DNA from: Buttiauxella massiliensis
Lineage (GTDB): Bacteria; Pseudomonadota; Gammaproteobacteria; Enterobacterales; Enterobacteriaceae
Assembly: GCF_902500225.1 (NCBI RefSeq)
Contig: NZ_LR722651.1
Span: 310,001-374,000, forward strand
Direction of reading: 5' to 3'
Length of the DNA: 64,000 bases
Under the pieces are notes generated by a model. That model saw only the letters and a list, made by a program, of their open reading frames with translations, was not told the origin of the DNA and ran no database searches. This document shows positions 28,253 through 54,774 of the stretch, piece after piece (position 1 is the stretch's first letter; each line of letters opens with the position of its first letter). Both the position numbers and the translations under genes were made by a program.

Positions 28253-28329
28253 TGGTCGGCGAGAGAGGATTCGAACCTCCGACCCACTGGTCCCAAACCA
28301 GTTGCGCTACCAAGCTGCGCTACTCGCCG
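28253..28329 (-). tRNA. tRNA-Pro (anticodon UGG)
   Basis: 77 nt including encoded CCA. The minus strand starts CGGCGAGTAGCGCAGCTTGG; the anticodon stem ACTGG/CCAGT encloses loop TTTGGGA, so the anticodon is TGG. T loop GGTTCGAATCC and acceptor CGGCGAG/CTCGCCG pair fully. In E. coli the locus between dppA and eptB holds proK (CGG); the sequence here matches proM-type tRNA-Pro(UGG). Symbol left empty for that reason. Confidence 0.96.
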
Positions 28330-50192: not shown

Positions 50193-50921
50193 GTGATCTA
50201 CAAATCTATCGCCGATCGGTTACGCATCCGGCTAAATTCTGCTGATTACAACATAGGCAGCCCGCTACCTTCTGAAGTTCGCCTGGCAGGCGAGTTTGGT
50301 GTTTCACGTATGACGATTCGTAAAGCCATCGATTTGTTGGTGGGCTGGGGGTTGGTCGTACGCCGCCATGGCAGTGGCACTTATGTAGCGAAGAAAGATG
50401 TTCACCATGAAACCACGAATCTCACCGGGTTTATTGAGGTGATGCGTAACCAGGGCAAAGAGGTGGTGAGTAATGTGCTGGAGTTCAATGTGATGCCCGC
50501 CCCACCAGCAATCGCCAGCCAATTACGCATTAATATTGATGAACGGATCTATTTCTCGCGCCGGGTTCGCTCGGTAGATGGCAAGCCGTTAATGGTAGAA
50601 GACAGCTATATGCCGGTGAAATTATTCCGTAATTTGTCCGTCGCACATCTGGAAGGTTCTAAATTCAGTTATATAGAAGATGAGTGCCACATCATCGTCT
50701 GTGGTAACTACGAAAGCCTCACACCCGTGCTGGCCGACAAGAAAATGGCAAATCTGCTCAATATCGATGAGCTAACACCCATTCTGCGCATCACGTCACT
50801 GTCATACAGCGACAGCGGTGACTATGTGAATTATTCGGTGATGTTCCGAAATGCCAGCGAATACCAGGTGGATTACCATTTGCGGCGGGTGCATATGAAT
50901 AGAATAAGAGATGAGGCATAA
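50193..50921 (+). CDS. yidP: GntR/UTRA-family regulator YidP
   Basis: 242 aa. The N-terminal GntR winged helix-turn-helix (about 1-65) contains GEFGVSRMTIRKAIDLLV and RRHGSGTYV; the C-terminal UTRA effector domain has the conserved YFSRRVRSVDGKPLMVEDSY. It starts at GTG, with AAGAGG about 9 nt upstream. It is divergent from aglAB and probably represses it until a phosphorylated alpha-glucoside binds. It corresponds to E. coli yidP next to glvCG. Confidence 0.92.
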   Translation: MIYKSIADRLRIRLNSADYNIGSPLPSEVRLAGEFGVSRMTIRKAIDLLVGWGLVVRRHGSGTYVAKKDVHHETTNLTGFIEVMRNQGKEVVSNVLEFNVMPAPPAIASQLRINIDERIYFSRRVRSVDGKPLMVEDSYMPVKLFRNLSVAHLEGSKFSYIEDECHIIVCGNYESLTPVLADKKMANLLNIDELTPILRITSLSYSDSGDYVNYSVMFRNASEYQVDYHLRRVHMNRIRDEA

Positions 50922-50959
50922 ACATAGCTTGCTGATAACTAATTTAATAAAAATAAGAT

Positions 50960-50985
50960 AATTGCTGCCCTAATGGGCAGCAATT
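50960..50985. terminator. terminator between yidP and the HNH gene
   Basis: Perfect 11-bp stem AATTGCTGCCC, loop TAAT, GGGCAGCAATT. It is followed by TTCGTT on the plus strand and by an AT-rich stretch on the minus strand. It separates two convergent genes. Confidence 0.7.
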
Positions 50986-51009
50986 TCGTTAAAAGCTCTG
51001 AATTCATTT

Positions 51010-51903
51010 TTACTTCTTAAATACATTTTCTCTATGCCATTCAAGAAATGTGTAAGCCTTTGGATGAAATTCGCGAACCCGTTGGATTTTGATGTTTAAA
51101 TCTTGCCATATTTTACTGTCAAAGCATGGGCTTAGCATTACTAATCCATCGTTGGTAAACGACAAGTAACCATTATCGAAAAGCACGTCTATATGAGCAG
51201 CGAGCATAATCCCGTTATAAGGATTCAACCGTTCTGAACCAGTCTCACAAGCGCGCCAGGGTTTAATATGACTTGCTATAAGTAGAGGAAGGAAAGAAAC
51301 ACCAGTCACAGGGCATGCTGGATAAATTTTCAAACATTCCACCCGGAACATCCCCTGACCCCGACGCGCTTCAATGTACGTCAGTTTCTCTGTTTCACTC
51401 AGAGATACATCAGTAAGGATTTCTTCAACATCCTCAACTTCCGGAGCATATATACTCGTCATAACAGTTGTATAAATGTCTCTGTTTGGCGCGTGTCTTT
51501 TAGCAGTTAACGTTGACGCAATAATATCCGTGGGAATTCCTGCTGGAACATTAATATATTTTATTTTTGAACCATATGAACGGTTACCTGTGAACTCCTC
51601 CCAATTCAAAGTTGTTTTCCCATGAATATGAGCATTTGTAAAATATACTACTTTCTTATTTACTTTTACGCCTTCAACTTCATGAATCTTGACTATATCT
51701 GCAACTATAATATCGAATTGAGATTTATTAACATCATCTTCCTTGCGAATAATAATAACCTCCGGAACTTTACCTTTACCAATAACCCATTTTCCGGAGT
51801 GCCCATCTTTTCCTTCCATATGAAAATTGGCGCCACTTGTTTCAACAATTACTGCAAGTCTGGATGGAGATGCTTTATTAAAGCTGATATTATTCTTTTC
51901 CAC
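51010..51903 (-). CDS. HNH endonuclease with uncharacterised N-terminal domain
   Basis: 297 aa. The C-terminal HNH domain (about residues 178-255) is complete: SHIKPW (His212), LNPYNG (Asn227, Asn230) and AAHIDVLFDNG (His237), the pattern of HNH proteins of restriction type. The first 165 residues form a separate, mostly beta-predicted domain that I do not recognise; it may bind DNA or a modified base. GTG at 51903 is preferred because AAGGAAG lies 6 nt upstream. The gene is AT-rich compared with its neighbours and has no counterpart between yidP and yidE in E. coli. No methylase gene is adjacent. Confidence 0.82.
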   Translation of the reverse strand: MEKNNISFNKASPSRLAVIVETSGANFHMEGKDGHSGKWVIGKGKVPEVIIIRKEDDVNKSQFDIIVADIVKIHEVEGVKVNKKVVYFTNAHIHGKTTLNWEEFTGNRSYGSKIKYINVPAGIPTDIIASTLTAKRHAPNRDIYTTVMTSIYAPEVEDVEEILTDVSLSETEKLTYIEARRGQGMFRVECLKIYPACPVTGVSFLPLLIASHIKPWRACETGSERLNPYNGIMLAAHIDVLFDNGYLSFTNDGLVMLSPCFDSKIWQDLNIKIQRVREFHPKAYTFLEWHRENVFKK

Positions 51904-52016
51904 AATACACTTCCTTATATAGGGTAGATCGATATGCAACAGAATTCTACGCGTTGTGTATTATTATCGACCGCGCGTGATTTTTCTTTAGCAATTAATA
52001 AATAAAAGGGATTCAG

Positions 52017-52751
52017 CTATTTGATGAAATGTACTTTTTCAGCACCATAACAGTTTATAAAATTAACGGCACCCTTAGGTAGGTTAAGAAAACGAGCACC
52101 TGTAACATCACAATCCTCCAATACCAATGGGCGTTCAACAATGTTGCAATGTGAAAAAGTGGTATTTTTTAGATTGCAATTCATAAAGACTACGCGTTGT
52201 AAATTACACTTATTTATAACCGTGCTTTCGAATGAGGTGTTTTCAAAAAAGCAACTTCGTAGAACAGATGAATAGATGATCGCATTAACAATACCAGAGA
52301 AAGTAACCAGACCACGTAAGACGCAATCAACAAGCAATCCTTTAATAGAAAATTCCGACAAGCGCTCTCCAGTATTATCAATCGACCGAGATTCAACTCC
52401 ATCCAATTGCAATGAAATACCTGAACTTAGCCTTATAAAAGAATCTTGTAATACTCCATTTTTAATATGTAATTTTCCTTTTGAATTTAACACTGAGTTT
52501 TCGATGAAGTTTTCAAATAGTAAGAGGTCACCATCTATTTTAAACAATGAGTTTATTACCTTACCATTAAGTACCTCTATCCTCGAATGGCTACCATGGT
52601 CTCTATATATATCAATCAGACAGTTATTCAAATTGCACTTATTAATAAGTGAAATACCAATTAGATTATATGCAATTATTTTTTCATTTTTTAGAATGGC
52701 ATTATTGAAGGCGAAAGAAGTCGCCTCCCTGATAACTTGGGGGGTCAACAT
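52017..52751 (-). CDS. pentapeptide-repeat-like beta-helix protein
   Basis: 244 aa without signal peptide or TM helix. The second half repeats short strands of the A(N/D)LxN type (INKCNLQRVVFMNCNLKNTT, then FSHCNIVERPLVLEDCDVTG), which suggests a right-handed quadrilateral beta-helix; the first half is more degenerate. AGGAG lies 6 nt before the ATG at 52751. It is co-directional with the HNH gene 113 bp downstream and equally AT-rich. A terminator-like hairpin sits just before its ribosome-binding site. Function is unknown; nuclease immunity or DNA mimicry is speculative. Confidence 0.72.
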   Translation of the reverse strand: MLTPQVIREATSFAFNNAILKNEKIIAYNLIGISLINKCNLNNCLIDIYRDHGSHSRIEVLNGKVINSLFKIDGDLLLFENFIENSVLNSKGKLHIKNGVLQDSFIRLSSGISLQLDGVESRSIDNTGERLSEFSIKGLLVDCVLRGLVTFSGIVNAIIYSSVLRSCFFENTSFESTVINKCNLQRVVFMNCNLKNTTFSHCNIVERPLVLEDCDVTGARFLNLPKGAVNFINCYGAEKVHFIK

Positions 52752-52767
52752 GATAGCTCCTGGACGC

Positions 52768-52796
52768 AAAAAAAACCGCTAACAAAAGTAAGCGGT
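52768..52796 (-). terminator. terminator or attenuator in the leader of the pentapeptide-like gene
   Basis: Minus strand ACCGCT-TAC-TTTT-GTT-AGCGGT followed by eight T. The T run ends 17 bp before the start codon at 52751, on the coding strand. It either ends transcripts coming from yidE or attenuates the islet. Confidence 0.75.
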
Positions 52797-53038
52797 GACG
52801 ATAACGATGATGAGAACACTTGTCGGTTATAGCAAAAAAATCGATGGCACTACAATCGCTATTTCGTCCTATTATTTGCAAAATTGAAAATAAAAAAATC
52901 ATGTAATTCAATTAATTACATAAAAATCACACCATCAATGATTATGTTTATCACCCTGTAACAGCAAATGCGTAATCGGCGATAGCCATCTTCCAGCAAA
53001 AAACGTCATGGAGAAATGGCTGTCGCAATGAGTTAAAT

Positions 53039-54694
53039 TCACATCCAAAACAATACCGCCAATAGCTGCGGCGTAATAATGCGCAGGAACATTACCAGTG
53101 GATAAACAGTGGCATAAGAGAGTGCCGCCGCTCCACTGGTTGCGTGCAAGCCGTTGGCAAAAGCCAGCGCAGGGGGATCGGTCATTGAGCCTGCCAACAT
53201 TCCGCACAGTGTCAGATAATTCATTTTGGCGAGCAATCTTGCCAACAATCCAGTAACCAGCAATGGAATACCCGTAATCAGAATCCCGTAGCCAATCCAA
53301 CTCACTCCGTCTCCGTGCAGCAAAGTACTGACAAAATCACCGCCCGATTTCAATCCAACCACCGCCAGGAATAGCACAATTCCTAACTCGCGCAGCGCAA
53401 GATTCGCACTTGGCGGCATAAACCAATAGAGCTTGCCGATGCTGCCAATTCGCCCAAGAATGATCGCCATTATAAGCGGCCCACCTGCCAGCCCAAGACG
53501 TAGAGCCACAGGGAAACCAGGGATGAAAAGCGGGATGGAACCGAGCAACACCCCAAGACCAATGCCGATAAATACCGGAAGCATTTGTACCTGCTGGAGT
53601 TTCTGTTGCGCGTTACCGACTTCAGCGGCTACTGCTTCTATAGATTCCGGGCGACCCACCAGGTTCAGGATGTCACCAAATTGCAGGCTGGCATTGCTGC
53701 TTGCGACCAGTTCAATACCTGCACGATTCAGGCGCGAAATCACCACGTCATACTTTTGTTTTAAATGCAGATCGCGAATTTTCTTGCCGAGCACTTTCTC
53801 GTTAGTCACCACCACACGTTCAACGCGCAGGTCTGTGCCACGAGTCGAAAGCGAGGTATCCACCTGCTGGCCGATCACCAGCAATGCAGAGTGCAGATCT
53901 TTTTCCTGGCCGACGAGGTGGAGTAAATCTCCGGTTTGAATAACCGTGCCAGGCGCTGGCACCATCAGCAATTCCCCACGTTTCAAACGCGAACAAATAA
54001 TAGTGTCGCTATTAAGGACCGGCACTTCCTGAATAGGTAATCCGTTAAGGTTAGGGTTGGCAACACAGATATTCATGGTCTGGAGTTGCGCGTGGTTTTG
54101 CCCACTACTGTTATCAAAGCGTTGTGCTTCTTGATCGACATTAATTCTAAATGCCATGCGAATTAACCACATGGTCAGAAGAATCCCGCAAATACCGAAC
54201 GGATAAGCCATCGCGTAGCTCATCCCCATTTTATCGACCAACTCTGAAGGCGTGCCGAGGTCGGTCAAAATTTGCTGACCTGCACCTAACGCTGGAGTGT
54301 TAGTTACCGCTCCCGAGAAAACACCGAGCACCACAGGAAGCGGAACATCGAAGATTTTATGGACAAGTGCCGTGACCAGCGCACCAATCACTACAATCAG
54401 AAGAGCAAATAGATTAAGGCGTAAACCGGAAACGCGTAGCGAGGAGAAGAAGCCTGGCCCAACCTGAATACCAATGGTGTAGACGAAGAGGATCAAGCCG
54501 AATTCCTGAATGAAATGAAGCATATCTCCATTCAGGCTTACTCCAGCCTCACTAACGAAATGGCCAACAATAATCCCGCCAAACAGCACGCCACCGATAC
54601 CAAATCCGACACCGCGGATTTTGATATTGCCAATCCATAGGCCGACGACTGCGACCAGAGCCAACATACTGACAGTTAACGCTATTCCACTCAT
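53039..54694 (-). CDS. yidE: YidE, putative transporter (AspT-type with paired RCK_C domains)
   Basis: 551 aa: five or six N-terminal TM helices, two central TrkA-C/RCK_C domains (about residues 195-370, with [20 protein letters not shown]), then a second TM block containing [20 protein letters not shown] and [17 protein letters not shown]. This is the AAE (aspartate-alanine exchanger) layout. Substrate is unknown. The start [11 protein letters not shown] has AGGGA upstream and matches E. coli (553 aa). About 240 bp with no gene I trust separate its stop from the pentapeptide gene. Confidence 0.92.
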
Positions 54695-54774
54695 CGAAGA
54701 TTTCCCTGTGAATAACATCATCGTTACAAGGGATTCTGGCAGAGAGGAGAGGGAGTTAATGGGGTGCAGAGCAC

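Follow-up and report, generated by a model that had tools for sequence, protein, structure and literature searches.

An accessory cassette of two genes is inserted between yidP and yidE of Buttiauxella massiliensis; at its core is, on balance, probably a modification-dependent (type IV-like) restriction endonuclease with a new sensor. The cassette encodes an HNH nuclease and a pentapeptide/beta-helix protein, here called PP. What is new in it is the sequence of the putative sensor, the presence of a beta-helix partner and the hairpin in the leader; a sensor-HNH modification-dependent nuclease is of a known kind. The original prediction of an undescribed system stands for the gene combination and for the sequence of the reader domain, but not for the type of nuclease. 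In the titles and opening lines of abstracts found in the literature, no pentapeptide-HNH defence pair is described, and in the available part of PMC10853773 pentapeptide repeats are mentioned solely in fusion with Orc/CDC6 proteins.

An AT-rich cassette at the yidP-yidE junction

The islet (positions 51013-52751 of the 64-kb window, the whole stretch of DNA analysed here) has a GC content of 36.2% vs 50.7% for the window as a whole, a level found in 0.64% of equal-length stretches when these are taken at 50-base steps and the islet itself is counted. Its two genes, identified from the list of open reading frames, are co-directional on the minus strand, with PP first and an intergenic gap of ~113 nt (Table 1). 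No methylase and no further gene-like frame is present in the islet, the longest others being antisense frames of 168 and 101 aa. The earlier picture of an AT-rich islet with two co-directional genes and no methylase, set between genes that are neighbours in E. coli, was thus borne out: in E. coli records both ends of the query matched within ~220 bp, which places yidP next to yidE, and Klebsiella records gave the same result. No integrase, tRNA or flanking direct repeat marks an insertion at the islet, and the sole tRNA of the window lies at 28253. Nor is a phage, a defence island or a second defence gene shown beside the pair, which we count against the restriction reading. At the islet edge (50892-50921), yidP extends several residues (MNRIRDEA) beyond the stop of its Buttiauxella relatives.

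Table 1. Features of the cassette and its flanks (window coordinates)
Feature	Position	Strand	Basis
yidP (GntR/UTRA regulator), left flank	50193..50921	+	ORF list, family profile matches
Terminator-like inverted repeat behind HNH gene	50960..50985	-	11 pairs; -19.4 kcal/mol, z -7.55
HNH nuclease gene, 297 aa, GTG start, stop 51010-51012	51010..51903	-	ORF, RBS-backed start, HNH_2, VcaM4I match
VcaM4I-type HNH domain, residues 161-297, predicted catalytic H212, N230, D239, D243	51013..51423	-	6yex alignment, VIA
N-terminal domain, residues 1-137, putative PUA-superfamily modification reader	51493..51903	-	AF2 model, VIA Z <= 5.5
PP, 244 aa, first gene of pair	52017..52751	-	ORF, start, PF00805, AF2 beta-helix, VIA
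Shine-Dalgarno AGGAG of PP	52757..52761	-	Sequence; kept in A111
Terminator-like hairpin (52775-52796) with U8 tract (52768-52775), putative attenuator	52768..52796	-	Folding vs shuffles
Putative promoter: extended -10 TGCTATAAC, weak -35 TTGTAG, box GGACGAAATAGCG common to A111	52826..52869	-	Alignment
yidE (AspT/YidE-type transporter), right flank	53039..54721	-	ORF list, family profile matches

A survey of yidP-yidE junctions located the pair a second time, in Buttiauxella sp. A111, with order and site identical to those of the window. Twelve Buttiauxella genomes were examined, eight of which carry yidP (E <= 1e-60); yidE follows it directly in six of these eight, and the other two are the window's genome and that of A111, where the pair occupies the site. 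These are the two known copies in the collections searched, so the two genes do co-occur elsewhere, once, and nowhere else that was searched. In other genera we recovered 26 yidP loci. At 15 of them yidE stands right behind, with a gap of 20-52 bp in 14 and of 199 bp in one (L156); the remaining 11 lack yidE in the 1.5-kb flank, two having short stray matches only. Neither PP nor HNH was present at any of the 26, and the idea that the junction is a cross-genus hotspot was rejected on this count.

In a tree of yidP and yidE, the window's genome groups with G007 (support 97; 97.0% identity) and A111 with G011 (support 100; 98.4% identity). Both G007 and G011 have a clean, empty yidP-yidE site, and neither PP nor HNH was matched anywhere in either genome. 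Between the window and A111, protein identity is 70% for PP and 73% for the nuclease, far under that of yidP. As point estimates from the only two copies of the pair, dS is 1.13 for PP and 0.89 for HNH (flanks: yidP 0.92, yidE 1.14), and dN/dS is 0.175 for PP and 0.186 for HNH (flanks: 0.025-0.031), the nuclease dividing into an N-terminal half at 0.28 and a C-terminal half at 0.095. Because dS equals that of the flanks and both genes are under purifying selection, the pair appears to be old and maintained. It was either ancestral, with several losses, or exchanged between lineages by recombination through the flanks; judged by these ratios, both proteins are kept by selection under either history.

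A VcaM4I-type nuclease with an unfamiliar N-terminal domain

Translation of the nuclease was assigned to the GTG at 51903, behind AAGGAAG, which yields 297 aa; a longer, 309-aa frame opens at an upstream TTG. The expectation of a restriction-type HNH nuclease was supported by Pfam HNH_2 on residues 209-261 of the 309-aa frame (E 2.1e-10) and by comparison with VcaM4I (6yex), which the HNH domain matches at E 5.3e-27 by phmmer and with Z 22.4 in VIA structural comparison (141 aligned, 1.4 Å, 39% identity). TagI is a more distant match (Z 9.9, 105 aligned, 2.9 Å), and with the whole-nuclease model as query 6yex was the sole Foldseek match at E <= 0.001. Residues H224, N241, D250 and D254 of VcaM4I align with H212, N230, D239 and D243 here, and these four are invariant in 40 aligned sequences. 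According to the accessible text of PMC7897488, H224A, D250A and D254A impair VcaM4I activity, and N241 supplies the motif's Asn. We assign the HNH domain, from sequence and model, to the type of VcaM4I (EVE-HNH), a modification-dependent restriction endonuclease; its catalytic residues are intact and cutting is predicted. A stand-alone or modification-dependent defence module, the earlier best guess, is supported in kind by this HNH type together with the lack of an adjacent methylase and the patchy presence at the site.

The same part of PMC7897488 reports that VcaM4I dimerises through its HNH domains, that its linker helix is inhibitory, and that the bare HNH domain without this helix is toxic to cells. 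In the AF2 model of the Buttiauxella nuclease, the place of the VcaM4I inhibitory linker is taken by predicted helices at 143-152, 159-163 and 170-180.

Proteins with a VcaM4I-type HNH are encoded at 73 loci on viral contigs, of which 57 were examined. The N-terminus resembles that of L066, an EVE-HNH protein that matches VcaM4I across both domains, in 47 of the 57 and is of other kinds in ten. When viral-contig N-termini were scanned with Pfam (n=58), DUF7662 was detected in eight and MrcB_N in one. The VcaM4I-type HNH thus appears, by sequence, to be a module that can be joined to various N-termini. In E. coli, 122 of 5426 genomes have relatives that cover just the HNH part (181 bp at 68%). 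One of these (L171, NZ_CP019250.1) has tRNA-Leu, yjgR and an AAA-domain gene as neighbours, which resembles an island. In another Enterobacteriaceae genome, two different HNH proteins (L003/L013, G020:C1:3233396-3235010) are encoded ~1.3 kb apart on one strand.

The N-terminal domain had been described as unrecognised, and it remained so in every sequence search. No Pfam family reached its cut-off, the nearest being DUF7272 (E 0.11, 12.5 bits vs 27), and the PDB gave no sequence match up to E 10. Relatives were likewise absent from plasmids and phages (tblastn to E 1), from viral contigs, and from 369 genomes of the class besides the window's own. Among genome contigs, 52 stretches fit the search pattern and one, that of A111, encodes a relative of the domain; in 372 genomes of the family, all 50 matches, from 46 other genomes, begin only at residue 158 of the 309-aa frame or beyond. 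Full-length membership in the EVE class was tried and set aside: it has no sequence support from the PDB or Pfam, hhalign to a 12-sequence EVE profile gave a probability of 0.1 with a two-sequence query profile of little power, and phmmer against the 57 viral-contig N-termini reached a best E of 0.33.

Fold prediction, proposed earlier together with the profile search, gave a mixed answer: profiles recognise no known family, and the predicted fold is weakly PUA-like, with Z no higher than 5.5. The AF2 model has five strands plus helices, with pLDDT mostly 50-75 and two loops below 50, and Foldseek returned no N-terminal match at E <= 0.001. The 50 listed VIA matches include 22 to the N-terminal half, 20 of them to PUA-superfamily readers: 15 YTH, 2 McrB N-terminal domains, and what we take to be 1 ASCH and 2 EVE-type structures. 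A phage baseplate protein and a pyrophosphatase make up the remainder of the 22. The best match, 6p0f, has Z 5.5 over 104 aligned residues at 3.9 Å; every N-terminal Z is below 8, the level under which a match may reflect a mere common arrangement, and matches within 1 Z count as tied, so that YTH and EVE are not separated. The N-terminal model thus weakly resembles YTH, McrB, EVE and ASCH domains, which serve as sensors in known modification-dependent endonucleases. Since the class of match is consistent and the domain stands before a VcaM4I-type HNH, a PUA-like reader is our best guess from the model. Loop 95-113, modelled at low confidence, is more conserved between the window and A111 than any other part of the domain (17/19 identical, against 13/18 in loop 26-43 and 25/50 in 114-163), and its conservation would fit a binding loop.

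The beta-helix protein and its leader

PP most likely starts at the ATG at 52751, behind AGGAG. A pentapeptide-like beta-helix had been anticipated, and both lines of analysis agree: PF00805 scores 21.8 vs a cut-off of 20.2 (in the A111 copy 23.8 vs 20.2, with PF13599 at 38.8 vs 38), and AF2 predicts a beta-helix along nearly the full length, residues 122-150 being unreliable, with a mean pLDDT of 72.5 for the best of five models that range down to 27. Among 372 genomes of the family, 12 including the window's own match PP at E <= 1e-3, and the C-terminal half has two clear relatives outside Buttiauxella (E 2e-15 and 4e-14). A profile search of 325 genomes of the order added two weak relatives besides the window's own protein, and none was found in plasmids (E 1e-3) or viral contigs. 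Short relatives of the C-terminal half lie beside gor (L016:1480-2793 and L017:1480-2807). The gene divergent from them encodes 235-239 aa with AAHGS and GSCFAG motifs, which are reminiscent of caspase-like peptidases; Pfam, PADLOC and the PDB sequences gave no match for it.

Does PP belong with the nuclease? The nuclease could act alone and PP could be an unrelated passenger in the same insert, as would suit VcaM4I-type enzymes, which in the text seen of PMC7897488 are orphan, self-restrained single proteins. The closest relatives of PP outside Buttiauxella, which adjoin gor and another gene rather than an HNH, point the same way. A passenger sits poorly with the purifying selection on PP (dN/dS 0.175), which has run in step with that on HNH over a dS of ~1, and with the equal place and order of the genes in both copies behind a common leader ahead of PP. 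We regard the passenger reading as doubtful, though by no means negligible.

That leader contains a terminator-like hairpin whose U8 tract ends about 16-17 nt upstream of the ATG of PP, a gap that contains the ribosome site. Its stability is -10.5 kcal/mol in the window (z -4.45, 0/200 shuffles as good) and -10.4 kcal/mol in A111 (z -4.30, 1/200 shuffles as good); a terminator scan calls the A111 hairpin but misses that of the window, where the stem contains a mismatch. There is no room for a promoter between hairpin and PP, and transcripts bound for PP must therefore pass the hairpin. A putative promoter with an extended -10 lies just upstream of it in both copies. When the yidE-PP intergenic regions of the window and A111 are aligned, identity is ~0.5 over columns 1-185, 0.71 over columns 186-305, and 0.87 in the putative promoter block (columns 186-200); consensus promoter scans of both copies did not list the extended -10 TGCTATAAC. 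Across 12 Buttiauxella genomes the exact leader motif occurs at the two pair loci only, with two further matches at 3 mismatches. The plainest way past the hairpin would be low-level read-through. More speculatively, a 5' stretch may sequester the PP ribosome site, as it does in both predicted folds, in a different register and depending on where transcription starts. Downstream of the HNH gene, GCTGCC/GGCAGC of the inverted repeat is kept in A111.

A leader peptide was considered and rejected: a reading frame does run open across the hairpin in the window and in A111, yet by eye A111 has no visible ATG, GTG or TTG start. A search of Rfam over 50800-53100 gave 10 weak matches up to E 5, none at the gathering score, and the match of Hrs13 over the leader (17.3 bits of 52, E 0.45) was treated as chance.

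A leader throttled by a hairpin would also suit a toxin-antitoxin-like guard pair, in which HNH would be a toxin that damages DNA generally and PP its protein inhibitor, encoded upstream of it; a phage that interferes with expression would then unleash the nuclease, resulting in abortive infection. The PP-then-HNH order, the co-inheritance and the constraint on both genes are all in keeping with such a pair, as is the toxicity of the VcaM4I HNH without its linker helix (PMC7897488, in the part consulted). Against it, the nuclease has a large folded N-terminal domain as in modified-DNA sensors, and the helices at the place of the VcaM4I inhibitory linker might make an antitoxin unneeded. The two genes are moreover ~113 nt apart, with no tight overlap. 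Toxin-antitoxin gene pairs commonly overlap tightly. Such a guard pair is, in our view, unlikely.

Pentapeptide proteins of the Qnr/MfpA type share with PP the pentapeptide repeats and the right-handed beta-helix, and pentapeptide solenoids including QnrB1, EfsQnr and MfpA are its top Foldseek matches. In VIA, tailspikes and other beta-helices rank above Qnr-type proteins, EfsQnr (Z 13.3) being 42nd and tied with many sugar-acting beta-helices. PP differs from Qnr/MfpA in its irregular N-terminal half and its near-neutral net charge (K+R minus D+E), +2 and -2 in the two copies (pI 8.06 and 6.30). It is not a member of these families by sequence, scoring 15-20 bits against NCBIfam cut-offs of 240-500 (MfpA 19.6/360, Qnr 17/240). 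Because of this charge and its generic beta-helix, DNA mimicry by PP, as the original prediction had imagined, is unsupported, and we think it very improbable that PP is a DNA mimic occupying the nuclease or gyrase, for all its pentapeptide repeats above the PF00805 cut-off and its solenoid matches.

A proposed mechanism and its relation to known systems

In the restriction reading that we favour, the N-terminal PUA-like domain would bind a modified base in invading phage DNA, and binding would release the C-terminal HNH domains, which would dimerise as in VcaM4I and cut the DNA. More tentatively, the leader hairpin may hold expression low, and PP, which is translated first, may be an accessory inherited along with the nuclease, most likely restraining or scaffolding it as a protein partner. 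In the genome we identified a single MethyltransfD12 gene (275-aa frame, E 8.6e-78) and a DNA_methylase gene (484-aa frame, E 8.6e-77), the latter with weaker partial matches in a second frame; we read the two genes as Dam-like and Dcm-like. With such marks on the host DNA, the reader would have to be blind to GATC 6mA and CCWGG 5mC unless some restraint acted on it. It is mainly because the host DNA is itself methylated that PP is worth considering as a restraining partner. The VcaM4I model does not require PP, because the relatives described in the portion of PMC7897488 to hand are self-restrained by the linker helix.

A more elaborate, two-component version of this scheme would have a PUA-fold reader of a new class, which might be YTH-like and see adenine methylation, fused to the VcaM4I-type HNH; the beta-helix partner would license or restrain the nuclease, since the system could otherwise target the Dam and Dcm marks of the host, and the system would be armed by a signal as the leader attenuator is passed. 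We hold this version, taken as a whole, to be rather unlikely.

VcaM4I itself is the nearest relative, alike in the C-terminal HNH, the catalytic residues, the layout of a sensor (putative in Buttiauxella) ahead of the nuclease and the lack of a companion methylase (PMC7897488, as far as seen; 6yex), and of similar length (309 aa vs 297 aa). It differs in its N-terminal EVE domain, to which the Buttiauxella N-terminal domain is not detectably related by sequence. Unlike that of VcaM4I, the Buttiauxella nuclease gene is paired, much as in an operon, with the gene of a beta-helix protein, and a terminator hairpin precedes both. The N-terminal YTH domain of Thermococcus gammatolerans McrB (6p0f, 6p0g) is the top structural match of the N-terminal model (Z 5.5), at a weak Z and 10% identity. 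The McrB N-terminal domain belongs to a GTP-driven McrBC complex. It is termed a 6mA-sensing YTH domain in the text available from PMC7897488. TagI (SRA-HNH) shares the HNH fold (Z 9.9) and the sensor-nuclease layout but has an SRA sensor and a less similar HNH domain (PMC6212794, seen in part). CMoRE is likewise a single-protein sensor-nuclease acting on modified phage DNA, but with a GIY-YIG nuclease and reversed domain order, and its abstract mentions no partner gene (PMC12923530).

Modification-dependent endonucleases have been described as lone proteins whose sensor is recognised; here the putative sensor has no sequence relative in the collections searched beyond the A111 copy, and the gene has a co-inherited beta-helix partner that follows a terminator hairpin. 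If PP does nothing, the nuclease would still be a new sensor fusion of a known sort. If PP restrains the nuclease, the pair would show how a host with methylated DNA of its own keeps such an enzyme, and would provide a new modification reader.
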